64,000 nucleotides of DNA, from positions 3,339,001-3,403,000 of the forward strand of contig NZ_CP140706.1 in assembly GCF_034555375.1 (NCBI RefSeq), read 5' to 3'. This stretch comes from Pseudomonas sp. B33.4 (GTDB taxonomy: Bacteria > Pseudomonadota > Gammaproteobacteria > Pseudomonadales > Pseudomonadaceae). Shown here piece by piece: positions 32,901 through 47,242 of the stretch; position 1 is the stretch's first letter; each line of letters begins with the position of its first letter. The position numbers and the translations under genes are program-made. The notes beneath the pieces were generated by a model. It was not told the origin of the DNA. It worked only from the letters and a program-made list of their open reading frames with translations, and searched no databases.

Positions 32901-33897
32901 GCGGGTGCAGAGCGGACAGCTTGATCGAAATGCCGGGCCCTTCGTAGATTCCCCGCCCGTGGGAGGCCTTGCCTATGGCATGGATGGCCTGTGTATAGGA
33001 CGTCAGGTACTTCTGAGCGTCGTGTTCGGTCAGAGCTGCCTCACCCAGCATGTCGTAAGAATACCGAAATCCCTTTGACTCGAACCGGGTAGCGTTGGCC
33101 AGTGCTTGGGCGATGGTTTCACCGGTGACAAACTGCTCGCCCATAACCCGCATGGCCATGTCTACCCCTTTGCGAATCAACGGTTCCCCGCCTTTACCGA
33201 TAATGCGCGTTAGCGTTGAGGTCATTCCGGATTCGCTATGAGTAGCAACCAGTTTCCCGGTCAGCAACAATCCCCAGGTCGCAGCGTTCACGAACAGAGA
33301 GCCGCTTTTGCCGATATGCGTCTGCCAGTTGCCGTTGCAGACTTTGTCCCGGATCAACGCATCGCGCGTGCCCTTGTCCGGGATGCGCAGCAGCGCCTCG
33401 GCCAGGCACATCAGAGCAACGCCTTCCTGCGAAGACAGCGAGAACTCCTGAAGCAGACCTTGCACGAGCCCTGCCCGGCCGCTGGCGCTCTTCTGATTGC
33501 GTAACTTTTCGGCGATGCCGGTAGCCAATTTGGCCGCTGATGTAGCCATCTCTTCAGGTAAACGCGCCTGCTCCAACAGCATCGGTACCATCTCTTCTTC
33601 TGGTCGCCGATAGGCTGAAGTAATCGCTGCCCTGAGGACCGACTGCGGATGGATATTTTCCGCCAGATCGAGAAAGGGTTGGCAAGCGGTCTCCACTGCT
33701 AGCTCCCCTTGCTCTTCAGCATCGCCGAGATGTGTGCCCAGCAACTCATCGAGCGTGACCCCACCTTCAAGCTTTTCCAGACAGTTGAAGAGTGCCTGCT
33801 TGATCAGCCAGTGTGGAGTTCGATCAATTGATGCGGCGGCAGATTTGAGACGTTCACGAGTAAGGTCGTCGAGTTTCACACCGAGGGTAGTCGCCAT
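29947..33897 (-). CDS. putA: trifunctional PutA: ribbon-helix-helix, proline dehydrogenase, P5C dehydrogenase
   Basis: Oxidises L-proline to P5C with FAD and quinones and then P5C to glutamate with NAD+; it can also repress its own promoter. The 1316-residue length matches E. coli PutA (1320). Order: RHH DNA-binding domain (residues 1-47, [16 protein letters not shown]), helical arm, proline dehydrogenase barrel (about 230-560: [43 protein letters not shown]), then P5C dehydrogenase (about 640-1060: [27 protein letters not shown], catalytic Cys near 914 in GQRCSALR) and a C-terminal domain. No putP is adjacent, and it sits beside a hydroxyproline-type regulon, so it may be a second, catabolism-specific copy. 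Hand counts show higher GC at third codon positions in about 32221-32860 than in the flanks (see findings). Confidence 0.95.
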
Positions 33898-34108: not shown

Positions 34109-34843
34109 TCAGAGTACCGAGCGCAGGAAATCTGCTGTTTCAGCTTTTTCAGGCCGGTCGAAGATCTGGTCGGGCGTCCCTAACTCGTGGATAAGCCCTT
34201 TATGGAAAAAGGCGACACGATCCGACACCTCGCGAGCGAAGCGCATTTCGTGGGTGACCACGATCATCGTCATCCCTTCATGGGACAACATACGCAAGGT
34301 ATCCAGAACCTCGCCAACCAGCTGTGGGTCCAGGGCCGAGGTCACCTCGTCAAACAACATGTAGTCCGGCGACATTGCCAGCGCGCGGGCGATCGCCATC
34401 CGTTGCTGTTGCCCGCCCGACAGACGTGCCGGAAACGTTGTCAGCTTTTCACCCAGGCCCACGTGTCTGAGTTTCTCGACAGCAATTGCCTCCGCTTCCT
34501 GCCTGGACTTACCCAGCACTTTTCGGGGGGCAAGCATGACGTTCTCGAGAACCGTCATATGGGGAAAGGCATTCCATTGCTGGAACACAATTCCGATCTT
34601 TTGCCGAAGTTTGTTGAGGTCGGTTTTTTTCGAGTGCACATGAATGCCATCAACACTGATGCGACCTTGCTGGATATCTTCCAACCCATTGATACACATC
34701 AGCATGGTCGACTTTCCGGAACCCGAACCGCCGATCATCGATAACACTTCGCCCTTGTTCACACTCAGGCTGACACCCTTGAGAACATGCAGAGAACCGA
34801 AATTTTTATGTACGTCTTCAATTTTTATCATTGTATTTGCCAC
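34109..34843 (-). CDS. polar amino acid ABC transporter ATP-binding protein
   Basis: A 244-residue ATPase of the HisP/GlnQ/OccP family. Walker A GGSGSGKST (about 37-45), Q-loop VFQQWNAFPHMTV, signature [15 protein letters not shown], Walker B YMLFDEVTSALDPQ (the usual Glu after the Asp is present) and the switch His (VVTHEMRFA). It overlaps the preceding permease gene by 16 bases and is the last gene of the operon 37032-34109. With the two permeases and the binding protein it should import an amino acid, probably a hydroxyproline or proline derivative in view of the neighbouring enzymes. Confidence 0.93.
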   Translation of the reverse strand: MANTMIKIEDVHKNFGSLHVLKGVSLSVNKGEVLSMIGGSGSGKSTMLMCINGLEDIQQGRISVDGIHVHSKKTDLNKLRQKIGIVFQQWNAFPHMTVLENVMLAPRKVLGKSRQEAEAIAVEKLRHVGLGEKLTTFPARLSGGQQQRMAIARALAMSPDYMLFDEVTSALDPQLVGEVLDTLRMLSHEGMTMIVVTHEMRFAREVSDRVAFFHKGLIHELGTPDQIFDRPEKAETADFLRSVL

Positions 34844-35481
34844 CTTTTCTCAAGACGAGCGCCGAGTCTCGCAATGGGGAAGCTTATTAAGAAGTAGATC
34901 ACGCCAGTGATTGCCAGAATGGTCAGTGGCTCTTGCACTCGGGTTGTAACAATTTGCGAGCTGCGCAGCAGTTCGATAATGCCGATCCACAACACCAGCG
35001 ATGTGTCTTTCATGATGCCGAGGGCCAGACCGATCCAGCTCGGGAATACGATCCTGGTAGCAATCGGCAAAGTGATCGAGACCACCTCCTGACGCCAGGT
35101 CAAACCCAGCGACCGCGCGGCGCGACGGGTTGTCGCCGGCACTGCCGCCACCCCGCTCCTGACGATTTCTGTGCACAGTGCTGCGGCATAGACACCGAGG
35201 CAAATACACGCCACAACGTAAGTAGGCCAGTTCAGGCGAAACATGCTGTTGAACGAATTGAATATGACCAATTGAATCAACAGCGGCACAGAACGAAAGA
35301 TATCCAGCACCCAACCTATGGGGGAGCTTATCCACCACGCAGCACCTGCTCTTATTACACCAAACAGTGTGCCGAACACTGTGCCTATCCCGACCGCAGC
35401 CAAAGTAATTGCGATTGTGACAACGGCACCCTTTAATAAATACAGGATGTCGCTCCACGCTAATGTCCCTTCAAAAAACAT
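34828..35481 (-). CDS. polar amino acid ABC transporter permease
   Basis: A 217-residue inner-membrane permease of the HisM/GlnP type. The ATG at 35481 has GAGAGG 6 bases upstream; the longer frame to 35517 has not. Seen: RAGAAWWISSPIGWVLDIFRSVPLLIQLVI, the conserved EIVRSGVAAVP and the EAA-type loop RRAARSLGLTWRQEVVSITLP. It lies 10 bases after the other permease gene. Confidence 0.9.
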   Translation of the reverse strand: MFFEGTLAWSDILYLLKGAVVTIAITLAAVGIGTVFGTLFGVIRAGAAWWISSPIGWVLDIFRSVPLLIQLVIFNSFNSMFRLNWPTYVVACICLGVYAAALCTEIVRSGVAAVPATTRRAARSLGLTWRQEVVSITLPIATRIVFPSWIGLALGIMKDTSLVLWIGIIELLRSSQIVTTRVQEPLTILAITGVIYFLISFPIARLGARLEKRWQIQ

Positions 35482-35491
35482 GGCGCACCTC

Positions 35492-36154
35492 TCAATAACG
35501 AAACAGGCGCCAAGCACATAGCCGCGCGCAAATCGTGAATATTTTCGATATCAGGTAGTACAGGCAAGCCGCGACGAAGAAGTACTCGAATGTCCGATAG
35601 GTCATGACATTAAGTTGCTGAGTAACACCCGTCAGATCGCTCGTCAGACCAACGATGGTTCCGAGAGACGTCATCAGAATTGACCACACCATCTGGTTGG
35701 TCATGGCATGGAACACCGCCCGCAACATCTGCGGAAGCACGATGTGCCACAACGTCTGAACCGCTCCCATGCCCAACGAACGAGCAGCCCGGACTTGAGT
35801 TTCCGGGACGGCGGAGAAGCCGCCCCGGAACGTTTCTGCCAGATAGCCTGCGTTGTTGAACGTAATACCGAGCAAGAGTGCATAGTACGAGTCGATACCC
35901 ACTCCAATGGAGCCCAGCCCGAAATACACCATGTAAATCTGGAACAGCGCCGGGGTATTGCGCGCCGTTTCAATCCACACACTGGCCAGACCAGATAGGG
36001 TTTTGTTACCCGATCGTTTTGCAAGCGCCAACAGGACTGCCAACACCGTACCAATTGCCATCGCCAGCGTGGCAATCTCCAGAGTGACTACCGCCCCCGA
36101 TAACATTTCCGGAAGCGATTCCAGAACCGGGCGCCACTGGAAGGTATAAGACAT
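35492..36154 (-). CDS. polar amino acid ABC transporter permease
   Basis: A 220-residue inner-membrane permease, partner of the one at 34828. Seen: SGAVVTLEIATLAMAIGTVLAVLLALA, IETARNTPALFQIYMVYFGL, then AETFRGGFSAVPETQVRAARSLGMG, which contains the EAA loop contacting the ATPase. Five hydrophobic segments. Fifty-six bases separate it from the binding-protein gene upstream. Confidence 0.9.
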   Translation of the reverse strand: MSYTFQWRPVLESLPEMLSGAVVTLEIATLAMAIGTVLAVLLALAKRSGNKTLSGLASVWIETARNTPALFQIYMVYFGLGSIGVGIDSYYALLLGITFNNAGYLAETFRGGFSAVPETQVRAARSLGMGAVQTLWHIVLPQMLRAVFHAMTNQMVWSILMTSLGTIVGLTSDLTGVTQQLNVMTYRTFEYFFVAACLYYLISKIFTICARLCAWRLFRY

Positions 36155-36210
36155 ACGATTACCTTTTTACGCGAAAGGTTTTTGTGATGCGGAACGAATG
36201 CTCCGTTTCT

Positions 36211-37032
36211 TTAACGATAGGTGCCTGGGACAGTCAGATCAGGAGCCGGCCCGCCTTCAGTTCCCACCCACTTGGCGTACAGCTCCGCATAGCGACCTGA
36301 GCGCACCTGCCGGTTGAGGAAAAGATTCACGTAGTTGAGCAAGCCCTGTTCCTGGCGTTGCACGAGGAACGCGCAGTAATCGGGATCGACTGGCGCATCA
36401 CCGACGATCTTCAGCCCCGGATATTTGCCCGAATTGATCACGTGGGTAGCAATCGTTGCAGTGGTGTATGTCGCGTCAATCTTCTTCTGGCTTAGCGCCA
36501 GGAAGCTGTCCGACTGGGACTGGAAGGTCAGCATCTTGGTGGCCGGATCATTGATCTTTTGCACCGTTTCTTTCAGAGCAGTCGTTTCATAGGCCCCGGC
36601 CGGGCCACCCACCGTGTGCCCTTTGAAATCGGCAACACCGTTAATTCCCGCGTCTTCGCGGGCTAGGATGATGGTCTTGAAGACAAAATAAGGAATCGAG
36701 AAGCCGATCGTCCTTGCGCGTTCCAGAGTATCTGAGGCTACGGCAATCCCGACATCAGCCCGTCCCGACAGCACCGCTGGAATCCGGTCAGGGTCCGGGG
36801 TATCGACGATTTCCGCCTTTACACCAAGAGCGGCGGCCAGATCATTACAGTAGTCGACATCAAAGCCGATCGGCTTGTTGTCCTTGTCTCGAGCGCCGTT
36901 AGGCGGGAAGTCGAGCTCTACCGCACAGCGCAGCTTGCCTGACGAAATGATGTCGTCCAACTGGTCTGCGTGAACGGCGGTAGTACTCAGGGCAGCAACG
37001 GCTGCGGCCAGGATGAGTGAGTTAATGCGCAT
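36211..37032 (-). CDS. polar amino acid ABC transporter periplasmic binding protein
   Basis: A 273-residue family 3 solute-binding protein. A Sec signal (SLILAAAVAALSTTAVHA) precedes the mature N-terminus DQLDDIISSGKLRCAVELDFPPNG. The family motif is seen as PIGFDVDYCNDLAAALGVKAEIVDT and the ligand-contact Arg region in IPAVLSGRADVGIA. First gene of the transporter operon. The ribosome site GAGGGG is followed by AACAAAAA running into the start codon (37032-37039), which fits the Crc/Hfq pattern. A GTATAC operator at 37097 lies 65 bases upstream, so it should be controlled by the GntR protein encoded at 43612. Confidence 0.92.
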   Translation of the reverse strand: MRINSLILAAAVAALSTTAVHADQLDDIISSGKLRCAVELDFPPNGARDKDNKPIGFDVDYCNDLAAALGVKAEIVDTPDPDRIPAVLSGRADVGIAVASDTLERARTIGFSIPYFVFKTIILAREDAGINGVADFKGHTVGGPAGAYETTALKETVQKINDPATKMLTFQSQSDSFLALSQKKIDATYTTATIATHVINSGKYPGLKIVGDAPVDPDYCAFLVQRQEQGLLNYVNLFLNRQVRSGRYAELYAKWVGTEGGPAPDLTVPGTYR

Positions 37033-37096
37033 TTTTGTTCCCCTCGTTTGTTGGCTGAACTCAGAAACAAGATACGCGTATTTTAGCGTATCTTGG

Positions 37097-37112
37097 ATAT
37101 CGTATACGTATT
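37097..37112. promoter_or_regulatory. GntR/FCD operator candidate, ABC transporter operon
   Basis: Reads ATATCGTATACGTATT, 13 of 16 positions matching the palindrome ATATCGTATACGATAT. A second related palindrome, ATACGCGTAT, lies at 37072-37081, so two operators may flank the promoter of the binding-protein gene, whose start is at 37032. Confidence 0.65.
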
Positions 37113-37156
37113 ATCGGGGCAGTAAAATTACAGCTCTTAGATCGTTATTGTTGGTA

Positions 37157-38164
37157 TCACTGGACGAGAAAACCGTAGGTAAGTGGGTCGGTCTCGTCGA
37201 TGATCCAGTTGGCGTATCCACAGATGTGGGCCTTTCCGCTCACTTCGGGAATTACGGCGTCCAGCGGACCGACCTTTGTTTCGCTGAGCGCGCGGCCTTT
37301 GAAAACGGTCCCGATAATGGATTCGTTGACCAACGTATCGGTGGCTGACAATTCACCTCGCAGATAAAGCTGTGCAACGCGGCCCGCGGTGCCCGATCCG
37401 GTTGGTGACCGGTCGATCGCACGATCGGCATACACGCAGCAGTTGGCCTGACTTGACCCCTCGTGACGCGGATCGCCATACACCATTACGCCGTACACAT
37501 CATTGAATTCGGGGATCTCAGGGTGGATGAACGAGCCCCGGGCATTGATAGCGGTTTTAATTTCATAGCCGAACTGGGTGATCGTCGACAGATCTTTTTC
37601 GCGGATGGCGATATTGTGCGGCCGGCCATCGACGTAGAAATAAGTCGCGCCGCCGTAGGCGATATCACCCGTCACCTTGCCGAACGTTGGCGTGGTCACC
37701 GTCACATCTCGCTCGAAGATGAATGACGCTACGTTGACGAAACGTACCGCCCCTGCCCGCACACCATCCCACTCGACGAACGCCTCGATGAAGCCGCATG
37801 GCGCATCGATACCTACACGGGTCTCGGGGGCTTTTCGCTCAATCCAGCCCAGCTCCACAGCAGCCGTGGCCAGCGCGATCACACCGTGACCGCAATGTGG
37901 GCTATAGCCCATGTTATTGAGGAAAATGATGCCGAAATCGGCACCTTCACTCACCGGTTCAGTCAGAAACCCGCCATACAAGTCCTTGTGACCACGTGGC
38001 TCAAGCATGAGAGCTCGCCGGTAATGGTCAGCGTTCTGTTGCAACCAGGTACTGCGCTCGACAATGGTCGCACCAGGCACTTTGGGTAGCCCCTGGGTAA
38101 CGAGACGGAACGTTTCCCCGCTCGTGTGCAGCTCAACCGTGGCAAATGATCGTTCGTACTGCAT
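37157..38164 (-). CDS. proline racemase superfamily, Cys/Thr type: probable trans-3-hydroxy-L-proline dehydratase
   Basis: A 335-residue proline racemase superfamily enzyme. The ATG at 38164 has CGGAG 7 bases upstream; the longer frame to 38257 has none. The first active-site residue is Cys91 (MGYSPHCGHG) but the second position is Thr255 in SPTGSGT, where racemases and 4-hydroxyproline epimerases have Cys. The Cys/Thr pair is the known hallmark of trans-3-hydroxy-L-proline dehydratases (EC 4.2.1.77), which form delta1-pyrroline-2-carboxylate, and both known types of reductase for that product are encoded nearby. A GTATAC operator lies 64 bases upstream at 38228. It converges with nothing and diverges from the dimethylformamidase-like gene. 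Activity is inferred from the residue pair and the context. Confidence 0.85.
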   Translation of the reverse strand: MQYERSFATVELHTSGETFRLVTQGLPKVPGATIVERSTWLQQNADHYRRALMLEPRGHKDLYGGFLTEPVSEGADFGIIFLNNMGYSPHCGHGVIALATAAVELGWIERKAPETRVGIDAPCGFIEAFVEWDGVRAGAVRFVNVASFIFERDVTVTTPTFGKVTGDIAYGGATYFYVDGRPHNIAIREKDLSTITQFGYEIKTAINARGSFIHPEIPEFNDVYGVMVYGDPRHEGSSQANCCVYADRAIDRSPTGSGTAGRVAQLYLRGELSATDTLVNESIIGTVFKGRALSETKVGPLDAVIPEVSGKAHICGYANWIIDETDPLTYGFLVQ

Positions 38165-38227
38165 TCGTATTCTCCGTATCTCAGGGTTGCGAAAGCTGGC
38201 AATGGCGTGAACAGATCGCCATTTCAG

Positions 38228-38243
38228 ATATGGTATACGATAA
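38228..38243. promoter_or_regulatory. GntR/FCD operator candidate, dehydratase gene
   Basis: Reads ATATGGTATACGATAA, 14 of 16 matching the palindrome ATATCGTATACGATAT. It is 64 bases upstream of the 3-hydroxyproline dehydratase-like gene (minus strand). Confidence 0.75.
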
Positions 38244-38374
38244 ACGATAAGCGTCAACTGTCAAATAGCGAGTCCGATGATCCAGGCCGATCAGGAGGCA
38301 AATTCCTGTAAGGCTTATAAAGAAGGAAAAGAATCCAGCCCACCTATGACTTGATGACGTCATTGACACAGGCG

Positions 38375-38390
38375 ATACGGTATACGATAT
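38375..38390. promoter_or_regulatory. GntR/FCD operator candidate, dimethylformamidase-like operon
   Basis: Reads ATACGGTATACGATAT, 14 of 16 matching the palindrome. It ends 27 bases before the ATG at 38418, a position where a repressor would block transcription of the plus-strand operon. Confidence 0.75.
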
Positions 38391-38417
38391 TCGATAAAAA
38401 CATCAGGTATCGGATGT

Positions 38418-40649
38418 ATGACTCATTCAGAAATCGATTCCCCGGCTGTCATCGGCTATGTCACACCGCTCAGCGCGCAACCCGGAGAACTTCTCGAATT
38501 CAAGATTTCCTCGGCAGGTGATAAGGACATTCGCGCCAGGGTTGTCCGGCTTGACTGCTGCGATCCCAATCCGCAGGGCCCAGGCCTCAAAAGCGTGGAC
38601 GTGGATTTCGATCTGGACGAGAGCTATCGGGCAACCGAACAAAAGACTTACCTCGGATCGTGTGCAATTGCTCCTCTGCCCTGTCTCCGTGATACCAGCA
38701 ATCTGACACTGTCGCTGTTCATAAAGCCCACGCTGTACAGCACCACTGACCAAGTGATTTTTTCGTGGCAGGATGAAACTGCAACGACGGGTTTCGCATT
38801 GATCCTCAACGCAGGCACGCTTGAGTTAAAACGACTGGGGGAGCACACCCGCCTGGAGATTGGTCTTTGCCTGGAGATCAACTGTTGGACCCAGCTGAAA
38901 ATCGGCTTCGGCCTGCAAGACATCGTCGTTCGCTCAAGGCGGGTGGGCAGACGAGAAACCGCCGAATCCAGCACCCGCCTGGAAGGGCTTCATGCCTTGC
39001 TCAAGAACTCCAGTCACCTGATTCTCGCTGCCATCTGGAGCGGCCATCCCGTCGATTGCCTCAACGGCGCCATCGAAGCACCATGCCTGACCCGGACTCA
39101 GGCTGGCACGAACGCCGACATCGAGGTGCTTGCGCGCTGGTCTTTTGCCAATGATGCATACAAGCAAACGGTTGAAGACGACATTAATCCTTCGCGCCAT
39201 CTCACCCTGGTCAACATGCCGATGCGCGGCGTGCGCTCTTCGGGCTGGACCGGCCGTAACATGGACTGGAAAACCGCGCCTGACGAATACGCCGCCATCG
39301 CTTTCCACGCCGATGACCTGAGCGACTGTCAGTGGAGCACGACCCTTGCGGTTCGAGTGCCTGCCGGTATGCCATCAGGAGTTTACGGACTGATCGTGGA
39401 TCATCCATCGGGCAGCGACACTATCCCGTTCTACGTTCTTCCCGGTGCAGGTTTACCTCGCCGCAGAATTCTCTTTCTGGCACCCACGTTTACCTATCAG
39501 GCCTATGCGAACCATACCCGCGGAACATTCGCCGGCGCGCTGCAGAACCGAGTCAGTGAGTGGAATGCCTATCCTCATAATCCGGACGTCATCGGTACAT
39601 TTGGATATTCAAACTACAACTGCCACCCGGATGGCTCAGGGATAACCCTTTCTTCCCGATTGCGGCCGATGATGACTATGCGCCCTGCGTATTTGGTCTA
39701 TCTCGACGAGCGAGGTTCCGGGATGCGTGGCTTTGCTTCGGACTCGCATCTGACCGACTGGTTGCAAGCCAAAGGGTACGAGTTCGACGTCATTACCGAT
39801 GAGGATCTGGATCGTGAAGGCATTGATGCCCTGACTCACTACGATGTCGTGCTGACCGGGACCCAGCCTGAATATCAAACGCGCAGGACACTGGAAGCGC
39901 TGATCGCCTATCGCGAGGGCGGCGGCAAACTGATGTACCTCGGCGGTAACGGCTTCTACTGGAAAATCGGCCGCCATCCACAGCTCCCTCATATGATCGA
40001 GGTGCGTCGCGCAGAAGGTGGCATGCGGGTCTGGGCCAGCCAGCCCGGCGAGTATTACCACCAACTCGATGGCGAGTATGGCGGCTTGTGGCGTCGCAAC
40101 GGAATCGCACCGCAACAAGTCGCCGGCGTGGGCTTCACCGCCGAAGGCGCATTCGAGGGGACGTACTACGTCCGCACTCCGGAATCGTTTCGCAGTGAAC
40201 TGGCCTTCCTGTTTGAGGGTATTGCACCCGATCAGCGAATAGGCGATTTCGGTCTTTCGGGAGGCGGTGCTGCCGGCTTCGAGATCGACCAGGTCTGTTC
40301 GGACTTGGGTACCCCGGACTTCGTTTCGGTCGTTGCTGTCTCTGAAGGTCATGGCCCGACCTTTGAAACCAGCTTCGAAGAGCTTCTGCTTCCGGGTGTC
40401 TTCGATGGCAGCCCGCGACCTTACGGCGGCATTCGCTCGAACATCGTCTATGGCATCGACGAGAACGGCGGAGGTCTGTTTTCGGTCGGGTCTATTACGT
40501 TTTGCGGCAGCCTCTCGCACAACCACTACGACAATAACGTGTCGCGTCTGCTGGAAAACTGTCTGCGTAAATTTCTCCAACTCTCAGGCAGCGCCGATGA
40601 GTCAGAACAACCCTCCCCTCACTCCGCCACCTCCTTAAAAGAAGATTGA
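38418..40649 (+). CDS. N,N-dimethylformamidase large-subunit homologue
   Basis: A 743-residue protein matching the large (beta) subunit of N,N-dimethylformamidase in length and layout: an N-terminal beta domain (IGYVTPLSAQPGELLEFKIS), a LamG-like jelly-roll insert (about 90-225, FIKPTLYSTTDQVIFSWQ), and a large C-terminal amidohydrolase-like domain with RILFLAPTFTYQAYANHT, PAYLVYLDERGSGMRGF, TGTQPEYQT (about 478-486) and YLGGNGFYWKIG. The known enzyme is a mononuclear-iron amidase of two chains; no gene for the small 15-kDa chain is present here. Its natural substrate is unlikely to be dimethylformamide; an N-substituted or amide derivative of a proline is plausible from context. First gene of an operon with the DpkA-like reductase (4 bases on) and the GNAT gene. 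The ribosome site is weak (AGG about 10 bases before the ATG). Confidence 0.85.
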   Translation: MTHSEIDSPAVIGYVTPLSAQPGELLEFKISSAGDKDIRARVVRLDCCDPNPQGPGLKSVDVDFDLDESYRATEQKTYLGSCAIAPLPCLRDTSNLTLSLFIKPTLYSTTDQVIFSWQDETATTGFALILNAGTLELKRLGEHTRLEIGLCLEINCWTQLKIGFGLQDIVVRSRRVGRRETAESSTRLEGLHALLKNSSHLILAAIWSGHPVDCLNGAIEAPCLTRTQAGTNADIEVLARWSFANDAYKQTVEDDINPSRHLTLVNMPMRGVRSSGWTGRNMDWKTAPDEYAAIAFHADDLSDCQWSTTLAVRVPAGMPSGVYGLIVDHPSGSDTIPFYVLPGAGLPRRRILFLAPTFTYQAYANHTRGTFAGALQNRVSEWNAYPHNPDVIGTFGYSNYNCHPDGSGITLSSRLRPMMTMRPAYLVYLDERGSGMRGFASDSHLTDWLQAKGYEFDVITDEDLDREGIDALTHYDVVLTGTQPEYQTRRTLEALIAYREGGGKLMYLGGNGFYWKIGRHPQLPHMIEVRRAEGGMRVWASQPGEYYHQLDGEYGGLWRRNGIAPQQVAGVGFTAEGAFEGTYYVRTPESFRSELAFLFEGIAPDQRIGDFGLSGGGAAGFEIDQVCSDLGTPDFVSVVAVSEGHGPTFETSFEELLLPGVFDGSPRPYGGIRSNIVYGIDENGGGLFSVGSITFCGSLSHNHYDNNVSRLLENCLRKFLQLSGSADESEQPSPHSATSLKED

Positions 40650-40653
40650 CGCC

Positions 40654-41694
40654 ATGACAGACGAGCTTTCTTTAGTGCACATGGACTTCGACGAACTCAG
40701 CCTGCTGTTGAGAAAAATCTTCATCCGCCACGGCACATCCGATTTCGTTGCTGACATCCTGGCCGCCAATTGCGCAGGCTGCGAGCGCGATGGTGCGCTA
40801 AGCCATGGCATCTTTCGCATGCCCGGCTATGTGGCCTCTCTGAAAACCGGCTGGGTGGACGGACAAGCCAATGCCGAGGTGAACATCGTAAGCCCTTCGT
40901 TCATCCGCATCGATGCCCGCAACGGATTCGCCCAACCAGCCTTGGCCGCCGCAGCGAAGGCCATTGATGAAGCCATCGAACGTACCGGCGTAGCCGTCAT
41001 CGCTATCCGCAACTCCCATCATTTCAGTGCACTCTGGCCTGACGTTGAACCGTTCGCACGCAAAGGATTGGTCGCGATCAGCTTCGTCAACGGTCTGGCC
41101 AATGTCGTCCCGCACGGCGGACACACAGCGGTTTTCGGAACCAACCCGATTGCCTTCGCAACGCCGGTCGCCGGCGCCGAGCCGCTCGTGGTGGACCAGG
41201 CGACCAGCGTCATGGCCAATGGCGAAGTTCGACTGCATGCGCTGGACGATCGACCACTTCCGCCCGGTACCGGCATCGACAGCTCAGGTAGCGCCACTAC
41301 GGATCCACATGCGGTGCTGGCCGGCGGAGCATTGAACACATTCGGCGGATACAAGGGCTCTTCGATTGCGCTCATGGTCGAGCTGTTGGCTGGTGCCCTG
41401 ACCGGAGGACAATTGTCGTTCGAGAACGACTTCGGCAGTTGCGTTGGCGCACAGACGCCAAAGGCCGGGCAGCTAATGATCGTGATCGATCCGGATCGTG
41501 GCGGCACAACCGACTTCAGCCAGCGTGCTGCGTTCCTGTGCAACCGCTTGATGGAAGCCGGTCAGGATCGACTGCCAGGTGCAAGGCGCCACAAGAACCG
41601 GCACACCGCACTGACCCAAGGCATTTTCCTTACAAAAAAAGCCATCGCGGATCTGCAGCAAATGGCCGCGGACAACGCCATACAGGCGCCTTGA
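40654..41694 (+). CDS. dpkA: delta1-piperideine/pyrroline-2-carboxylate reductase (Ldh2/DpkA family)
   Basis: A 346-residue NADPH-dependent reductase of the malate/L-lactate dehydrogenase (type 2, non-Rossmann) family. It is very like Pseudomonas DpkA as remembered: GALSHGIFRMPGYVASLKTGWVDG, FAQPALAAAAKAIDEA, AIRNSHHFSALWPDVEPFA (catalytic His in NSHHF), VPHGGHTAVFGTNPIAFATP and GGYKGSSIALMVELLAGALTGG. DpkA reduces the cyclic imines from D-lysine and D-proline and also makes L-proline from delta1-pyrroline-2-carboxylate, the expected product of the 3-hydroxyproline dehydratase gene at 37157. It starts 4 bases after the upstream stop with an AGAAGATTGACGCC site. Distinguishing it from other Ldh2 enzymes rests on these motifs and the context. 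Confidence 0.85.
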   Translation: MTDELSLVHMDFDELSLLLRKIFIRHGTSDFVADILAANCAGCERDGALSHGIFRMPGYVASLKTGWVDGQANAEVNIVSPSFIRIDARNGFAQPALAAAAKAIDEAIERTGVAVIAIRNSHHFSALWPDVEPFARKGLVAISFVNGLANVVPHGGHTAVFGTNPIAFATPVAGAEPLVVDQATSVMANGEVRLHALDDRPLPPGTGIDSSGSATTDPHAVLAGGALNTFGGYKGSSIALMVELLAGALTGGQLSFENDFGSCVGAQTPKAGQLMIVIDPDRGGTTDFSQRAAFLCNRLMEAGQDRLPGARRHKNRHTALTQGIFLTKKAIADLQQMAADNAIQAP

Positions 41695-41747
41695 TCGCAC
41701 TTATAGACACATTCACCTCACCTCTAAAGCAACATTCTGGAAAAAAC

Positions 41748-42182
41748 ATGAGCAACCTATCCCGCGACACCGGCACCCTGGAACTTCATCGATCGCTATC
41801 GTCTTCACACATCGAACAACTGGTGGCGCTTTTTCAAACCGAATGGTGGACCAAGGGACGCATCAGCGCAGATGTAGAAAAGATGGTGCAATCGGGCGGC
41901 CCGCTCTTCGCTTTCATTGACCCGCAGAACGATGAACTTGTCGCGTTCGCCCGAGCAATGACCGACGGCGTTTATAAGGCGATGATCTTCGACATTATCG
42001 TCAAGGAGACGTGGCGTGGGACCGGGCTGGGCGCTGTACTCATGAACACAGTGCTGAACGATCCTGCATTGGTCGACATCAAACACCGCGAACTCTACTG
42101 CCTGGACGACATGGTGCCGTTCTATGAAAAATGGGGTTTTGCCACCGCAGCGGCCGGTTTGAACTTCATGCGCAAGGCATAG
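41748..42182 (+). CDS. GNAT-family N-acetyltransferase
   Basis: A 144-residue GNAT protein: acetyl-CoA binding motif in VKETWRGTGLGAVLMNTVL (R/Q-x-x-G-x-G/A) and the C-terminal YEKWGFATAAAGLNFM with the usual Tyr near FYEKWGF. The ATG at 41748 is selected because the frame upstream overlaps the reductase gene and the fold begins here. It is the third gene of the operon. A role in acetylating a toxic proline analogue, as known for some GNAT enzymes acting on azetidine-2-carboxylate or cis-4-hydroxyproline, is conjecture. Confidence 0.8.
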   Translation: MSNLSRDTGTLELHRSLSSSHIEQLVALFQTEWWTKGRISADVEKMVQSGGPLFAFIDPQNDELVAFARAMTDGVYKAMIFDIIVKETWRGTGLGAVLMNTVLNDPALVDIKHRELYCLDDMVPFYEKWGFATAAAGLNFMRKA

Positions 42183-42211
42183 GGGTAAACCCGATTCCGG
42201 CCGCGATCCCG

Positions 42212-43495
42212 TCATATGGAAAAACGCTTGGCACTGAAAGGTTCCAGATTCTGCGTGGGTTGGCGGCCGGCAACCATCTGCGCAATGAGCCGGCCGGTCG
42301 TGGCTCCCAAGGTCAGGCCAAGCTGGCCATGTCCTAAAGCCATGAATACATTCGATAGCCGGGTACTGCGGTCGATCACGGGCTTGGTGTCTGGCAAATA
42401 CGGCCGGTAACCGACGCCGTACTCCAGGTCGCTCAATCGCAATCCGGGAATGATCTTGCGCGCCTTTTCAAGAATGATTTCTGCGCGTTTGAAATTCGGC
42501 TCGGCATTGGGCCGTGCAAACTCCATGGTGCCGCCGATTTGCAGGCCGCGAGTCATGGGGCTGATGCAAAAACCTCCATCGGGGAAAATGACCGAGTGTT
42601 GCACTCTCTCCACCTCCGCTGGCAGAAGCGCTTGGTAACCCGCGATCCCGACCAGCGGAATCTGTACGCCTAGCTGAGCAAAAAACTGTCGTGAACCGAC
42701 ACCCGCTGCAATCACCACATGATCAGCTGCGTAGCGCTGATCATCGGCCAGCGTGACACCGCTTGCACGTTGGGCCCCTTCATCCAGGCGTTTGACCTGT
42801 CCACGAACTCGGACACCGCCCTGGTCGATAAAACTTTGCGTCAACGATGCGATAAACCCCTCGGTATCGCTTACCGAGCGCCAGTCAGGGAAAAGCAAGC
42901 CGTGACTGAACTTGCCCGCTAGCGATGGTTCGAGATCGGCAATTGCCGCGGCATCCAGTATTTCTGCTTTGAAGCCCAAGGCTGTTCGGAATGCCAAATG
43001 GGGACGTTCCTGCTCCATACCTGCTGAGGATTCAAACAGCTTGATCACAGGACCTTCGCGCAGCAATCCCTGCTCAGTACAAGCCTGTAACAATGGCGCG
43101 TAATCCGCGTGCGCATAAAGTGTAAGACTGGCGATATCCCGAGCAATTTCTTCGGATTTCGATTGCTTGGCACACGCCAGAAACCTCAGGAACCACGGCA
43201 ACATGCCGGGCAATGCGCTGGCTCTCAACGCCAGAGGCCCTTCCTGATCGAGTAGCCACCCCGGAATCTTTTGCATCACCCCAGGTCTGGACAGTGGAAC
43301 CACTTCGCCGATGGCCATTTGGCCACAGCTCCATTTGGCCGTGCTGTCGCCTGCCGCGGCGGGATCGATCAAAGTAACGGCATACCCTTCCCTTTGAAGA
43401 TACAGGGCACAGCATGTCCCTACGATTCCCCCACCTACGACAACTACCCTTTCTGAAAACAGGCGAAAGTGTTCGGAAGAGTGAACAGGCGCCAT
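42212..43495 (-). CDS. DadA-like FAD-dependent D-amino acid (D-hydroxyproline) dehydrogenase
   Basis: A 427-residue FAD oxidoreductase of the DadA/glycine oxidase family. The FAD-binding GxGxxG is at residues 17-30 (VVVVGGGIVGTCCA), followed by STAKWSCGQMAIGEVVPLSRP and C-terminal GYRPYLPDTKPVIDRS and GHGQLGLTLGATTGRLIAQM. Such enzymes oxidise D-proline or cis-4-hydroxy-D-proline to the imine in hydroxyproline pathways; which substrate is used here is not certain. The ATG at 43495 follows AAGGGGGATAC; the longer frame to 43564 does not fit. It has its own GTATAC operator at 43537 and 116 bases separate it from gntR. It converges with the GNAT gene. Confidence 0.82.
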   Translation of the reverse strand: MAPVHSSEHFRLFSERVVVVGGGIVGTCCALYLQREGYAVTLIDPAAAGDSTAKWSCGQMAIGEVVPLSRPGVMQKIPGWLLDQEGPLALRASALPGMLPWFLRFLACAKQSKSEEIARDIASLTLYAHADYAPLLQACTEQGLLREGPVIKLFESSAGMEQERPHLAFRTALGFKAEILDAAAIADLEPSLAGKFSHGLLFPDWRSVSDTEGFIASLTQSFIDQGGVRVRGQVKRLDEGAQRASGVTLADDQRYAADHVVIAAGVGSRQFFAQLGVQIPLVGIAGYQALLPAEVERVQHSVIFPDGGFCISPMTRGLQIGGTMEFARPNAEPNFKRAEIILEKARKIIPGLRLSDLEYGVGYRPYLPDTKPVIDRSTRLSNVFMALGHGQLGLTLGATTGRLIAQMVAGRQPTQNLEPFSAKRFSI

Positions 43496-43536
43496 GTATC
43501 CCCCTTGAAGATGCGTCAAATGATGGCCATTATCAG

Positions 43537-43552
43537 ATATGGTATACGCATC
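43537..43552. promoter_or_regulatory. GntR/FCD operator candidate, DadA-like gene
   Basis: Reads ATATGGTATACGCATC, 12 of 16 matching the palindrome ATATCGTATACGATAT, with the central GTATACG intact. It lies 42 bases upstream of the start at 43495. Confidence 0.65.
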
Positions 43553-43611
43553 ACAACAAAGCAAAATCGCCGTAGCGAAGGCTACGGCGATGTGGACATC
43601 TGCGCTTGGAT

Positions 43612-44289
43612 TTACTTGCGAATGTTGTCCAGCAATGATTCGCAGGCCTTGGTGATGTGCTGACGCAACAGTTCAGCGGCCTCCTCGGCATCGCCTTTGC
43701 GGCACGCCGCCAGGATCTGCCGGTGTTCGCGATCATCCACACCTGTCCCACCGGACAGGGTGAGCTGAATTCTCAAATAGCGCTCGATACGGTCATTGAC
43801 CGAACGGATGAGGTTCATCAGGAACGGCCGGTTGGCATCCTCATAGAGGCAGGAATGAAACTGCCAATTGAGCTCCGCCCAGCGCGCCACATTGGTCTCT
43901 TGCGCGAACTCGTCACAATACTGCTCGGCCCTCTTGAAAGTGGCTTCGGTCATCAGAGGCACGGACAGTTTCAGCGCGCTGGACTCCAGCATTGCCCGGA
44001 CCTCGAAAATCTGCGCAATTTCCGGCTCGGAAATGCTTTTGACGACAGCGCCGCGGTTACGCTGAAACTCGACAAGGCCTTCGGCTTCGAGGCGTTTGAG
44101 CGCTTCACGCACCGGTATCTTACTGACATCGAACAGCTTGGCGACGTCATCCTGGCGAATCGGTTCGCCTTCATCGAAGTCACCCGTGATGATCGCCTCA
44201 CGAATGTGATTGGCGATGATGTCGGACGCCGTAGGCGCGGAGCCAAGTGACGGCAGATCTGCAGGACTTAGGGGCAATTTGAACTCCAT
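43612..44289 (-). CDS. GntR-family regulator, FCD (FadR/VanR) subfamily
   Basis: A 225-residue regulator with an N-terminal winged helix (about 20-90: ANHIREAIITGDFDEGEPIRQ, DVSKIPVREALKRLEAEGLV) and a C-terminal all-helical FCD domain (about 95-215, with AMLESSALKLSVPLM and the HRQILAACRKGDAEEAAELL ending). The FCD domain usually binds a metal and a carboxylate or amino acid, fitting induction by a hydroxyproline. Five operator candidates of the GTATAC type (37097, 38228, 38375, 43537, 44430) surround it; a weaker version is at 44316, 27 bases before its own start, suggesting autoregulation. The start at ATG 44289 has weak ribosome-site support. Confidence 0.92.
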   Translation of the reverse strand: MEFKLPLSPADLPSLGSAPTASDIIANHIREAIITGDFDEGEPIRQDDVAKLFDVSKIPVREALKRLEAEGLVEFQRNRGAVVKSISEPEIAQIFEVRAMLESSALKLSVPLMTEATFKRAEQYCDEFAQETNVARWAELNWQFHSCLYEDANRPFLMNLIRSVNDRIERYLRIQLTLSGGTGVDDREHRQILAACRKGDAEEAAELLRQHITKACESLLDNIRK

Positions 44290-44315
44290 GTGTGCAATCG
44301 GGAAGCCACGATCGA

Positions 44316-44331
44316 ATAACGTATTCTATAT
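44316..44331. promoter_or_regulatory. weak GntR operator before gntR
   Basis: Reads ATAACGTATTCTATAT, 12 of 16 positions as in ATATCGTATACGATAT, with the core broken (GTATTC). It is 27 bases upstream of gntR, consistent with weak autoregulation. Confidence 0.4.
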
Positions 44332-44429
44332 CAGCTCGCAGCTTACCATCGGCTGGTCTGTCTGGTGATACAGCCTCGCCGGGTGACTGATGCGCTTCAT
44401 CAGCCCCTAAAAACCCGTTGACACCACTA

Positions 44430-44445
44430 TCAACGTATACGATAT
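44430..44445. promoter_or_regulatory. GntR/FCD operator candidate, tautomerase/cyclodeaminase operon
   Basis: Reads TCAACGTATACGATAT, 13 of 16 matching the palindrome, with a perfect right half (CGTATACGATAT). It lies upstream of the plus-strand genes starting at 44536. Confidence 0.7.
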
Positions 44446-44510
44446 TCAATCTAGAGTTCGACTCACCCGGTGTCAAGCACTCAACACCAGGCTTGCGCTG
44501 CATACCTGCC

Positions 44511-44523
44511 AACAAGAACAACA
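44511..44523 (+). promoter_or_regulatory. possible Crc/Hfq catabolite-control motif
   Basis: AACAAGAACAACA stands just before the AGGAG ribosome site of the gene at 44536 and contains AANAANAA matches in two registers. In Pseudomonas this motif near a start codon is the known landing site for Hfq with Crc, which blocks translation when preferred carbon sources are present. Confidence 0.5.
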
Positions 44524-44535
44524 GGAGAAACCTGC

Positions 44536-44712
44536 ATGCATTCGTCTCCCCAAAAGCCAGCCAAACAATCGCGGATTGCCGACAAAGCGACAGACGCCCC
44601 CAGTGCGTCTCGGCACCCCCCCCACAAAACCGGCAAGCACGACGACCTCAGGTCGTTTTTCCACGACCTGATGAATGTGCCCGGCTCTAGCGAACATCTG
44701 TTGATTCTTTGA
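44536..44712 (+). CDS. small unknown protein at the head of the tautomerase operon
   Basis: A 58-residue frame starting at ATG 44536, with AGGAG 8 bases upstream. Composition is polar and basic at the N-terminus (SPQKPAKQSRIADKATD), then DLRSFFHDLMNVPGSSEHLLIL. No family was recognised. It contains a run of eight C at 44616-44623 and another run of eight C follows it at 44726-44733, so frameshifting by slippage is possible and it may be a decayed gene. It could also be a leader peptide. Support is the ribosome site and the position in the operon only. Confidence 0.35.
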   Translation: MHSSPQKPAKQSRIADKATDAPSASRHPPHKTGKHDDLRSFFHDLMNVPGSSEHLLIL

Positions 44713-44771
44713 TACCGGTTTATCGCCCCCCCCTTCGACGTTCGCCACTCGAACACTCAGGAGAACCCGAA

Positions 44772-44981
44772 ATGCCGATAGTAAAAATCAAAATGCTCGC
44801 CGGACGACAAAGCGAGAAAAAGCACGAACTGGCAAGTGAAATAACGGCTGCCTTTTCCAGAATCCTTGGTTCCGCACCAAAGGACGTCACCATCACTTTC
44901 ACCGATGTGGCGCCCTCCGACTGGGTAATTGCCGGCGAACCGCTCAGTGCTTCCGTCACTGCGCCCTCGCCCCAGCGTTAA
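44772..44981 (+). CDS. 4-oxalocrotonate tautomerase family protein
   Basis: A 69-residue 4-OT subunit. The catalytic Pro follows the initiator Met directly (MPIVKIKMLAGRQSEKK), so it becomes the N-terminus after Met removal; Arg near residue 11 is present, and the middle helix HELASEITAAFSRILG is typical. Such enzymes tautomerise keto/enol or imine/enamine pairs; here a tautomerisation of a pyrroline carboxylate would make sense but is unproven. The ribosome site is CAGGAGAACCCGAA. It is 85 bases from the next gene in the operon. Confidence 0.85.
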   Translation: MPIVKIKMLAGRQSEKKHELASEITAAFSRILGSAPKDVTITFTDVAPSDWVIAGEPLSASVTAPSPQR

Positions 44982-45066
44982 ACGATTCACTGAATAGCGT
45001 TTGTGGATTGAACGCGATCAATCCCGAAGCACTGTGTTTTCTATCCTTCAATGTCGAGTTTCACTC

Positions 45067-46029
45067 ATGTATTTGAATGCCCAACAACTGGCCGATGCAC
45101 TGCCTTGGGACGCGCTGATGAATGCGCTATCCGATATCTTCACCCGTACCGTGCACTCCCCTGTGCGTCACCACCACAAGATAGAAGTACCGGGCGACCC
45201 CGCTGCCATGCTGTTGTTGATGCCAGCCTGGATCGAAGGCGAGTATCTAGGGGTCAAGCAAGTCACCGTGTTCCCCGGTAACAATGCAAAAGGCCAACCG
45301 GGGCTCAGCAGCCACTATCTCCTCAGTTGTGCGAAAACCGGCCTACCGCTGGGTCAGTTTGACGGCAACGAACTGACAGCCCGCCGCACAGCCGCGGCTT
45401 CTGCACTTGCCTCTCGCTATCTGTCTCGTACCGATTCGAAACGACTGCTTATGGTCGGGGCCGGCCGTATGGGGCGCTATCTGGTCAGCGCGCACCGATC
45501 GGTTCGCGATCTGGAAGAGGTCATTGTTTATGACCTCAACTTCGAAGCCGCAACGGCATTCGCGAACGACATCAGGGCCCAGGGAATCCAGGCAAAAGCC
45601 GTCACACTTCAGGAGTTACCCGCAGCCGCTGCTGCCGTCGATATCATCAGTTGCGCCACACTGGCCACGGAACCGGTCATACAAGGTCAGTGGTTGAAAC
45701 CTGGCGTTCATCTGGACCTGGTCGGCAGCTTTACCCCGATCATGCGCGAAGTCGACGACGATGTTGTGGCGCGCTGTAGCATTTTCGTTGATACCCGCGA
45801 AGGTGCTCTCGCGGAGACAGGTGACCTGATCCAGCCGATTCAGAAAGGCGTCATTACCGAAGACGACGTAATCGCCGAGTTCAGCGAACTGTGTGCCGGG
45901 AAACACTTCGGGCGCTCTGTCCTGACGACTCCGGATAAAGCCATGACCCTGTTCAAATCGGTTGGCGCGTCGGTAGAAGACCTCGCAGCGGCCATTCTGG
46001 CTTACCAGCGGACTTCAGTTTCCCGCTGA
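45067..46029 (+). CDS. ornithine cyclodeaminase family, probable delta1-pyrroline-2-carboxylate reductase
   Basis: A 320-residue ornithine cyclodeaminase/mu-crystallin protein. The ATG at 45067 fits the usual start ([20 protein letters not shown]). Seen: [33 protein letters not shown] [16 protein letters not shown], the Rossmann motif [15 protein letters not shown], and [17 protein letters not shown] followed by [17 protein letters not shown]. These are close to the LhpI-type pyrroline-2-carboxylate reductases of hydroxyproline pathways. It should use NAD(P)H to make L-proline. This is a second, unrelated fold for the same reaction as the DpkA-like protein at 40654. Confidence 0.85.
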
Positions 46030-46102
46030 GCCCCCCTTTCAACGTTTGCACGTTCAATACATGTCGGGCGCCAGGCGCCCACCGAATCCCCGGAGAAATA
46101 CC

Positions 46103-47137
46103 ATGCGATCATCCAAAGTCATCCATGTCGTCAGTTGCCATGCAGCGGGTGAAGTGGGCGACGTCATTGTTGGCGGTGTTGCCACCCCTCCGGGGGAAAC
46201 GATCTGGGAGCAGCGCAAGTTCATTGAAACCGACCAGGCACTGCGCAACTTTGTCTTGAATGAGCCTCGCGGTGGGGTGTTCCGGCACGTCAATCTGCTG
46301 GTTCCGCCCAAGCATCCGCAAGCAGACGTTGGCTGGATCATCATGGAGCCGTGCGATACACCACCCATGTCAGGTTCCAACTCGATGTGCGTGGCGACCG
46401 TACTGCTGGAGACCGGAATCATCCCTATGGTAGAGCCGGAAACCCGCATGTTCCTTGAGCCGCCAGGAGGGTTGATCGAAGTGGTTGCGAGCTGCCGAAA
46501 TGGCAAGGCTGAGCGAATTACCGTACGCAACGTGCCGTCATTTGCTGACAAACTTGATGTGACTATCGAGGTATCGGGGATTGGGTCTCTACTCGTCGAT
46601 ACGGCCTATGGTGGTGACAGTTTCGTCATTACCGACGCCAGAAGACTGGGCTTTTCATTGACCCCTGACGAAGCCAGGGAGATTGCCGATTACGGCATGA
46701 AGATCACTCAGGCAGCCAACGAACAATTGAGGTTTGTCCACCCGGAAAACGATGACTGGAAGCATATTTCCTTCTGCCAGATCGCTAACCCGGTAGAGAT
46801 GAAAAACGGCATTCTGACCGCAGCCAATGCGGTGGCTATCCGCCCTGGAAAAGTAGACCGTTCCCCATGCGGCACGGGCTGCTCGGCCCGCATGGCAGTC
46901 CTGCATGCAAAAGGCCAGATGAAATCGGGTGATCGCTTCATCGGCAAGTCGATCCTGGGCACCGAGTTCGATTGTCGGATCGATTCAGTATTGTCCGTGG
47001 GTGGCCGTCCAGGTATCAGTCCGATAATTTCCGGACAAGCCTGGATTACAGGTACACACCAACACACGCTGGATCCGACCGACCCGTTTCCGGCAGGTTA
47101 TCGTCTTTCCGACACTTGGCCTGTAGAGAAGCAGTGA
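46103..47137 (+). CDS. proline racemase superfamily, Ser/Cys type (hydroxyproline epimerase-like)
   Basis: A 344-residue proline racemase superfamily enzyme. The ATG at 46103 has GGAGA upstream; the frame to 46046 is unsupported. The first active-site position is Ser90 ([10 protein letters not shown]) and the second is Cys256 ([12 protein letters not shown]), so the substitution is the opposite of the Cys/Thr homologue at 37157. Ser/Cys members are known as 4-hydroxyproline 2-epimerases in some cases, but activities vary. An epimerase here would link an L-hydroxyproline to the DadA-like dehydrogenase at 42212. The deaminase and ketoglutarate-semialdehyde dehydrogenase genes of the usual 4-hydroxyproline route are not found in the window. 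Last gene of the operon that starts at 44536. Confidence 0.85.
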
Positions 47138-47211
47138 TAGCCACTTATTCAAGTGCTAACGATAATTTTTCTCAGAGATCCAAGCTGTTATGGATCAAAC
47201 AAGTTGAAGCG

Positions 47212-47241: not shown

Positions 47242-47242
47242 G

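Follow-up and report, generated by a model that had tools for sequence, protein, structure and literature searches.

Introduction

The classical Pseudomonas L-hydroxyproline (lhp) cluster comprises PA1252-PA1269, and its LhpL protein (PA1255) was reported as a trans-3-hydroxy-L-proline (t3LHyp) dehydratase and 2-epimerase (PMC5144071). In Proteobacteria, hydroxyproline genes are controlled by HypR, a GntR-family negative regulator that is often autoregulated, and the taxon-specific members of its regulon include an ABC transporter, ornithine cyclodeaminase (OCD) and PutA (PMC5343134). In the t3LHyp pathway of Zhao et al. 2014 (PMC4113996), a proline-racemase homologue (PRS) acts as dehydratase and an OCD or MLD2 enzyme as reductase, and the enamine-to-imine step was described as non-enzymatic. 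Here, a stretch of the Pseudomonas sp. B33.4 genome was analysed (3339001-3403000 of the 6.60 Mb single contig; 64,000 nucleotides, hereafter the window), which carries a cluster with two PRS genes, two reductase genes, an ABC transporter, a GntR/FCD regulator and an operon that begins with a dimethylformamidase-fold acylase (Table 1). On balance, we lean towards reading this cluster as a GntR/FCD-repressed variant of the lhp cluster, which would convert 3-hydroxyproline-type imino acids, together with an amide conjugate of them, to L-proline.

Results

An acylase operon within a conserved nine-gene module

An original prediction for this DNA had listed the ABC transporter, PRS1, DpkA-type, DadA-like, GntR, tautomerase, OCD, PRS2 and PutA genes, and domain, PDB or model matches confirmed each of them in its place. 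It omitted the acylase, which is the largest gene of the span, and the GNAT N-acetyltransferase. The acylase, DpkA and GNAT genes form one plus-strand operon. This acylase operon is the surprise of the cluster; the presence of two racemase types together is not surprising.

Genome contigs were scanned with the acylase protein of the window, which gave 106 relatives, and the best 80 loci were kept. A module gene was counted at an identity of at least 50%, and an acylase was called close at 60% or above. The nine-gene core (GntR, acylase, DpkA, GNAT, PRS1 and four ABC genes) was complete in all 17 loci with a close acylase, which belong to Pseudomonas, Rhizobium, Agrobacterium, Shinella, Mesorhizobium, Phyllobacterium, Ancylobacter, Gluconacetobacter and further Rhizobiales. 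These loci are not independent of one another: L040 and L055 are both from R. rhizogenes, and L039 and L133 seem to represent the same genome. None of the remaining 63 acylase loci contained the full core; GntR, DpkA, GNAT and ABC genes reached at least 50% identity in 0/63, and PRS1 in 2/63, both Paraburkholderia. Among the 24 of these loci that span at least 20 kb, no GNAT gene of any kind was present, GntR, DpkA and ABC genes at 50% were found in none, and PRS1 was found in two. Relatives of the acylase occurred in 75 plasmid records, of which the best, from Pararhizobium, was read; it too carries all nine genes. In the tree, the acylases of the module (18 in total, from 17 loci and the window) formed a single clade with a support of 1.0. 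The Pseudomonas acylases nest among the alphaproteobacterial ones (the support of 1.0 is the value for the whole clade), which points to transfer.

Gene neighbourhoods in other Pseudomonas were compared, as the original prediction had proposed. In the four other Pseudomonas loci (L037, L038, L039 and L047) the nine-gene core was kept, with PRS1 94-96% identical, whereas PRS2 was found in just three, and PutA stood beside the cluster in three. PRS2 was also present in L044, L045, L046, L049 and L050. Across 398 genomes of the genus, PRS1 at 94% or above occurred in three, the source genome included, all with an adjoining acylase. Five genomes had a distant acylase (37-42%) without such a PRS1, and five had PRS1 at 65-66% without a close acylase; in the three of the latter that were read, PRS1 lies next to an OCD-family gene and GTATACGAT-type operators are absent.

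These three clusters, which pair PRS1 with an OCD reductase and no acylase, would fit an ordinary regulon for free t3LHyp and D-prolines, in which the acylase operon merely shares the regulator and acts on some unrelated amide, such as that of an N-acyl beta-amino acid. The nearest solved relative of the acylase, an N-acetyl-(R)-beta-phenylalanine acylase, would agree with this as well. However, the acylase operon itself includes DpkA, a pyrroline-2-carboxylate reductase, the acylase is linked to PRS1, GntR and the ABC genes in 17/17 loci from several genera, and the palindrome described below precedes the acylase in Pseudomonas and most rhizobial loci. We therefore consider such a passenger role of the acylase operon unlikely.

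Other acylase-bearing loci were set aside. G010 has an acylase-like gene, but it is a 35% relative and no module surrounds it. In three loci of marine Rhodobacteraceae metagenome-assembled genomes (L058, L062 and L063), a 42-43% acylase lies near an OCD-family gene and a tautomerase. They were rejected as the same pathway because L058, the sole one annotated, showed no PRS among the ten proteins scanned. L058 further holds an ATC hydrolase, a PALP-family enzyme and an amidase, and the three loci perhaps represent another amide pathway.

A common palindrome before the transcription units

The palindrome ATATCGTATACGATAT precedes the ABC operon, PRS1, the acylase operon, gntR and the tautomerase-OCD-PRS2 operon. 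With at most three mismatches, five sites were found in the window, compared with 0.02 expected from shuffles, and 70 matches were found in the window plus the 17 loci, compared with 0.8 expected; the operator consensus was picked after viewing these sites, and both enrichments are descriptive rather than independent tests. The same search of the 6.6 Mb genome gave ten places, five of them in this cluster, and the reversed control pattern gave one. Two of the operators overlap the -10 elements of good promoter matches. This layout suggests that GntR may repress through the palindrome at the predicted operators. The claim of a hydroxyproline-type regulon in the original prediction is supported by these predicted operators before the transcription units, and the cluster is conserved and very probably co-regulated.

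A control scan of 59 genomes of the genus, allowing no more than two mismatches, was carried out after the consensus had been chosen. Matches were found in 27 of the 59 genomes, and 18 of the genomes carry ATATCGTATACGAAAT. This sequence lies within ~6 kb of an LhpL-type gene in 17 of the 18, and in G043 it lies ~4 kb from a gene of the 4-hydroxyproline epimerase (4HypE) type. Other variants of the palindrome occur in the source genome and in G009, G011, G014, G017, G021, G033, G051 and G055; of these eight, only the site of G021, in locus L136, was read.

The classical hydroxyproline cluster and a separate 4-hydroxyproline locus

Two loci, L134 and L135, were taken as classical Pseudomonas hydroxyproline clusters by their gene content. 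They carry relatives of the GntR regulator (59-62%), the ABC genes (54-76%) and PRS2, as LhpL (73-74%), together with 4HypE (68%), DHDPS, DAO and aldehyde dehydrogenase relatives and a more distant DpkA (38-40%). Their operator sits at two genes, encoding the binding protein and the DHDPS relative. Of the two loci, L134 was scanned, and it contains AcnX. The regulator, operator and transporter of the module resemble those of L134 and L135, and the module looks like a variant of the hydroxyproline cluster, in which the 4-hydroxyproline enzymes would have been replaced by the acylase, DpkA, GNAT and Cys/Thr dehydratase.

The 4-hydroxyproline enzymes are encoded elsewhere in the same genome. A third racemase homologue at ~3.80 Mb passes a 4HypE cut-off (482 bits versus 442), and this locus, 0.4 Mb from the cluster, also holds amino acid permease, DHDPS-family, aldehyde dehydrogenase and DAO-family genes. 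None of the ten genomic places of the palindrome lies at this locus, which places the 4-hydroxyproline enzymes outside the predicted regulon. The original prediction had described the 4-hydroxyproline branch as incomplete, lacking a deaminase and a ketoglutarate-semialdehyde dehydrogenase. Nothing within the span contradicts their absence, but an incomplete branch was rejected for the genome in view of the complete locus at ~3.80 Mb. AcnX-type dehydration of cis-3-hydroxyproline was rejected for this genome as well, since AcnX (PF04412) had no match in it.

The two racemase homologues

PRS1 and PRS2 each pass the cut-off of an NCBIfam t3LHyp dehydratase model, NF045511 and NF047722, respectively. 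Neither reached a 4-hydroxyproline epimerase cut-off (376 bits), the best scores being 216.6 for PRS2 and 292 for PRS1. PRS1 has the Cys/Thr pair (C91/T255), which was found in 17/17 module loci. PRS2 matches 4k8l (581 bits), 1tm0 (580 bits) and 4k7g (538 bits) in the PDB, the last deposited as a 3-hydroxyproline dehydratase. PRS2 does not have Thr256 of this solved dehydratase (B9K4G4), and Cys256 was found in the window and in all eight module-locus rows with both residues readable. Position 256 is Cys in 12 and Thr in 8 of 20 PRS2 relatives (64-85% identity). This mixture within one set of relatives indicates that the residue pair is not decisive for the reaction and that Thr256 does not define the subfamily.

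In Zhao et al. (PMC4113996), 1TM0 and B9K4G4 (4K7G, Ser90/Thr256) belong to cluster 3, which is mixed for both activities; 3-hydroxyproline epimerisation was shown for another member of this cluster, 4K8L was placed among the 4-hydroxyproline epimerases, and a Ser/Cys protein of a different cluster was a 4-hydroxyproline epimerase. Cys256 by itself was rejected as a reason to call PRS2 an epimerase, because Cys and Thr are mixed in one subfamily and both reactions occur within one cluster of Zhao et al. We infer that PRS2 is of the LhpL type, in one subfamily with PA1255, from its 73-74% identity with the PRS proteins of L134 and L135, two clusters whose gene content matches that of the classical cluster.

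These findings bear on whether the cluster combines a 3-hydroxyproline-to-proline route with a truncated 4-hydroxyproline branch, the Ser/Cys enzyme being an epimerase for 4-hydroxyproline or another isomer. The Ser/Cys epimerase of the other cluster, the mixed functions of cluster 3 and the counting of 4k8l, the best PDB match of PRS2, as a 4-hydroxyproline epimerase (PMC4113996) would agree with such a branch. With a complete 4-hydroxyproline locus elsewhere in the genome, free of these operators, and with PRS2 above the t3LHyp dehydratase cut-off and below the epimerase cut-offs, a truncated branch appears improbable. Although 4k8l is counted among the 4-hydroxyproline epimerases, PRS2 itself fits better into the t3LHyp dehydratase/epimerase subfamily (NF047722; 4k7g) than among those enzymes.

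Outside the module loci, the PRS2 relative with the highest identity (85%) was found in G023 (L119, 12409-13539), where its neighbours are an acyl-CoA dehydrogenase gene and putA. GTATAC was not found in this stretch around it.

The dimethylformamidase-fold acylase

The acylase carries the dimethylformamidase domain PF20254, and its closest match in the PDB, over residues 9-725, is the N-acetyl-(R)-beta-phenylalanine acylase 8huy. Tyr399, Tyr440 and Glu521 of the dimethylformamidase 6lvb, which we take to be metal ligands, correspond to Y363, Y400 and E485 here, and these residues are conserved in 80/80 related loci (the best 80 of the 106 relatives). Two PDB entries of the 6lvb type carry point mutations, at Tyr440 and Glu521 in the printed numbering. 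The equivalent of His519 of 6lvb, two residues before the conserved Glu, is Gln in all five Pseudomonas proteins (Gln483 in the window), and His in 76/76 other loci.

The omega values were 0.12-0.15 for the acylase and DpkA, 0.06-0.12 for GNAT, 0.07-0.12 for both the DadA-like protein and the tautomerase, 0.06-0.07 for the OCD enzyme, and 0.01-0.06 for PRS1, ABC, GntR, PRS2 and PutA (PRS2 and PutA were compared in three of the four loci). Outright decay of the acylase was rejected, because 0.12-0.15 still represents purifying selection. The higher omega and the Gln at an otherwise invariant His suggest that the acylase operon of Pseudomonas may be adapting or partly relaxed.

On visual inspection, a signal peptide is present in the ABC binding protein and absent from the acylase, indicating that the substrate would enter the cell whole. 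This substrate may be a 3-hydroxyproline-type imino acid conjugated through an amide bond. N-acylprolines, like dimethylformamide, are tertiary amides, an attractive analogy with which the acylase chemistry would fit. To our knowledge, few dimethylformamidase-fold amidases have a known substrate.

Reductases, DadA-like enzyme and PutA

The DpkA-type reductase matched PDB 1wtj with 383 bits (next best, 138) and reached no NCBIfam cut-off, and the OCD-type reductase passed NF004793. The dehydratase cut-offs, the DpkA and NF004793 matches, and the likeness of GntR and operator to those of the hydroxyproline cluster support the original prediction that t3LHyp is dehydrated and reduced to L-proline.

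The names of 1wtj and NF004793 both include piperideine-2-carboxylate, and several module loci are rhizobial, as would be expected if the substrates were six-membered (hydroxy)pipecolic acids or their amides and both reductases acted on delta1-piperideine-2-carboxylate. Such a pipecolate pathway seems very improbable, given that two distinct PRS enzymes are both assigned to t3LHyp dehydratase models, that the cluster has its regulator, operator and transporter in common with the classical hydroxyproline cluster, and that PutA is adjacent in the window and in three of the four other Pseudomonas loci.

The original prediction had L-proline fed to an encoded PutA. The putA gene is present, but its membership in the regulon was rejected: it has no operator, and GTATAC was not found between PutA and the ABC operon. 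PutA adjoined the cluster in none of the rhizobial loci. The remaining oxidative enzyme failed NF001933 and is hence called only DadA-like. An extra FAD-dependent oxidase was present in eight alphaproteobacterial loci (L040, L042, L044, L045, L046, L049, L055 and L066; Pfam checked in L040 and L044).

Layout of the cluster

The coordinates of the cluster are collected in Table 1. The true start of PRS1 is probably 38164, because the predicted operator before PRS1 falls inside a longer ORF with a TTG start. For the DadA-like gene, the mechanical ORF is 42212-43564, and the start was taken as 43495. The first ORF of the tautomerase-OCD-PRS2 operon encodes 58 residues and had no match in a Pfam search; versions of 57-60 residues with a conserved C-terminal end were found in the four other Pseudomonas loci. 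Directly 3' of PRS2, the stretch 47153-47452 (+) shows an apparent LacI-family regulator remnant, of which just the C-terminal Peripla_BP_3 part is left, preceded by a perfect GTT repeat of 10.3 copies at 47212-47242. A chemoreceptor (MCP) gene, 27878-29905 (-), adjoins putA, and a 73% relative lies beside putA in L047; this receptor is possibly a proline or hydroxyproline sensor.

Table 1. Genes and predicted operators of the cluster, in window coordinates
Feature	Position	Strand	Matches and remarks
PutA	29947..33897		beside the cluster
ABC transporter ATPase, polar amino acid type	34109..34843	-	PF00005; 76% identity to ATPase of L134 and L135
ABC permease 2	34828..35517	-	PF00528; in 17/17 module loci
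ABC permease 1	35492..36154	-	PF00528; in 17/17 module loci
Periplasmic solute-binding protein, family 3	36211..37032	-	PF00497; 54-56% identity to L134/L135 binding protein
Predicted GntR operator before ABC operon	37097..37112		3 mismatches to ATATCGTATACGATAT; same position in L037, L038, L039, L047
PRS1, Cys91/Thr255 proline-racemase homologue	37157..38164	-	NF045511 607 bits, cut-off 540
Predicted GntR operator before PRS1	38228..38243		2 mismatches; overlaps minus-strand promoter match
Predicted GntR operator before acylase operon	38375..38390		2 mismatches; overlaps -10 of TTGACA-17-GATATT promoter match 38363-38391
Dimethylformamidase-fold amidohydrolase/acylase, 743 aa	38418..40649	+	PF20254 273 bits; PDB 8huy 575 bits
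DpkA-type delta1-pyrroline/piperideine-2-carboxylate reductase (Ldh_2)	40654..41694	+	PF02615; PDB 1wtj 383 bits
GNAT N-acetyltransferase	41748..42182	+	PF00583; weak PDB matches 3s6f 45 bits, 7dai 41 bits; in 17/17 module loci
DadA-like FAD-dependent D-amino acid dehydrogenase	42212..43495	-	PF01266; NF001933 208 bits, cut-off 383
Weak predicted GntR operator before DadA-like gene	43537..43552		GATANNGTATACG exact at 43536-43548; outside the matches to the full palindrome with at most 3 mismatches
GntR/FCD regulator, proposed repressor	43612..44289	-	PF00392, PF07729; 62% and 59% identity to GntR of L134 and L135
Predicted GntR operator before gntR (autoregulation)	44316..44331		3 mismatches; identical sequence in the other four Pseudomonas loci
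Predicted GntR operator before tautomerase-OCD-PRS2 operon	44430..44445		3 mismatches; overlaps -10 of TTGACA-17-GATATT promoter match 44418-44446
58-aa ORF with Shine-Dalgarno-like sequence	44536..44712	+	similar ORFs in 4/4 other Pseudomonas loci
4-oxalocrotonate-tautomerase (4-OT)-type protein	44772..44981	+	PF01361 50 bits; homologue adjoins PRS2 in L044
OCD-family delta1-pyrroline-2-carboxylate reductase	45067..46029	+	NF004793 414 bits, cut-off 322
PRS2, Ser90/Cys256 proline-racemase homologue	46103..47137	+	NF047722 635 bits, cut-off 550; 4k8l, 1tm0, 4k7g 538-581 bits

Discussion

Proposed pathway

The following pathway is proposed from gene content and layout. Repression by GntR would be lifted by a hydroxyproline-related inducer, and the ABC system would import the free or conjugated imino acid. 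The cytoplasmic acylase would cleave the amide and release the imino acid. t3LHyp would then be dehydrated by PRS1 or by PRS2, and PRS2 probably epimerises t3LHyp too. The resulting enamine would give delta1-pyrroline-2-carboxylate, possibly aided by the tautomerase, which either the DpkA or the OCD enzyme would reduce to L-proline for degradation by PutA. The DadA-like enzyme may return D-proline, or cis-3-hydroxy-D-proline formed by PRS2, to the imine, and such recycling of D-isomers would account for the presence of two reductases.

Several observations weigh against this pathway. The nearest characterised relative of the acylase takes its name from the amide of a beta-amino acid rather than from an imino acid, and the GNAT enzyme encoded next to the acylase could work in the opposite direction. 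The acylase and DpkA evolve faster than PRS1, ABC, GntR, PRS2 and PutA, and with Gln in place of His the acylase of Pseudomonas may be altered or weakened. The five genomes with PRS1 at 65-66% and no close acylase indicate that t3LHyp use does not depend on the acylase. The best PDB match of PRS2 counts as a 4-hydroxyproline epimerase in Zhao et al. (PMC4113996), and the link to PA1255 is indirect, running through the PRS proteins of L134 and L135 rather than through the PA1255 sequence itself. With regard to regulation, the operator before the DadA-like gene is weak, promoter matches are no more frequent in the region than expected (8 against 7.7), and the palindrome of L136, AAATCGTATACGATTT at 6864 with two mismatches, has no relative of the module or the 4-hydroxyproline genes around it. 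Moreover, the rhizobial FAD oxidases do not align by blastp to the DadA-like protein of the Pseudomonas loci.

Among open-licence papers in PubMed Central, none was found that joins dimethylformamidase with hydroxyproline, N-acyl-L-proline with acylase, or pyrroline-2-carboxylate with tautomerase, and no published hydroxyproline pathway for conjugated substrates came up there. A more detailed proposal, which we consider possible but doubtful, is that a dimethylformamidase-fold enzyme hydrolyses N-acyl imino acids and thereby feeds a 3-hydroxyproline dehydratase, that a 4-OT tautomerase carries out the enamine-to-imine step, and that the Pseudomonas acylases, with Gln for His, have shifted their specificity. 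If the conjugate reading is true, it suggests that bacteria may also consume chemically capped 3-hydroxyproline-like compounds. It would further place one branch of the dimethylformamidase-fold amidases in a likely physiological context, with a substrate guess that can be tested with simple compounds (N-acyl prolines and 3-hydroxyprolines), and would make the tautomerase a candidate enzyme for the tautomerisation step in 3-hydroxyproline breakdown. A defined palindrome ties the acylase operon to the classical hydroxyproline cluster across gamma- and alphaproteobacteria, and further members of the regulon can be found by this pattern.

Comparison with known systems

The acylase shares the Tyr, Tyr, Glu and Asn positions of the N-acetyl-(R)-beta-phenylalanine acylase (8huy, 8i59 and 8i5a). 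That enzyme has an HPEY motif, whereas the Pseudomonas proteins have QPEY, and the acylase here probably acts on another substrate. With the N,N-dimethylformamidase large subunit (6lvb), it has the PF20254 domain and the Tyr, Tyr and Glu in common, but the match is only 342 bits, and the N-terminal part matches poorly. No gene for the small (alpha) subunit lies beside the acylase, where the gaps of 175 bases to the divergent PRS1 start and of 4 bases to dpkA are too short for one; the rest of the genome was not searched for it.

The likeness to the HypR regulon (PMC5343134) is one of type, with a GntR-family regulator and a palindrome before its targets (predicted sites here), and does not imply orthology of GntR and HypR. 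In the main text of that paper, acylase, dimethylformamidase, acetyltransferase and tautomerase do not appear; the present cluster has a dimethylformamidase-fold acylase, an acetyltransferase and a tautomerase. The likeness to the lhp cluster, as represented by L134 and L135, is closer, covering the GntR regulator, the ABC transporter, LhpL and a near-identical operator, ATATCGTATACGAAAT. The present cluster does not have the 4HypE, DAO, DHDPS and aldehyde dehydrogenase relatives of these two loci or the AcnX of L134, and it adds the acylase, a close DpkA, GNAT, the Cys/Thr dehydratase, the DadA-like enzyme and the tautomerase. The t3LHyp pathway of Zhao et al. 2014 (PMC4113996) has the same two reactions and the same enzyme families. 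In the cluster described here, dehydratase and reductase are both doubled, and the acylase, GNAT and tautomerase are added under one palindrome.

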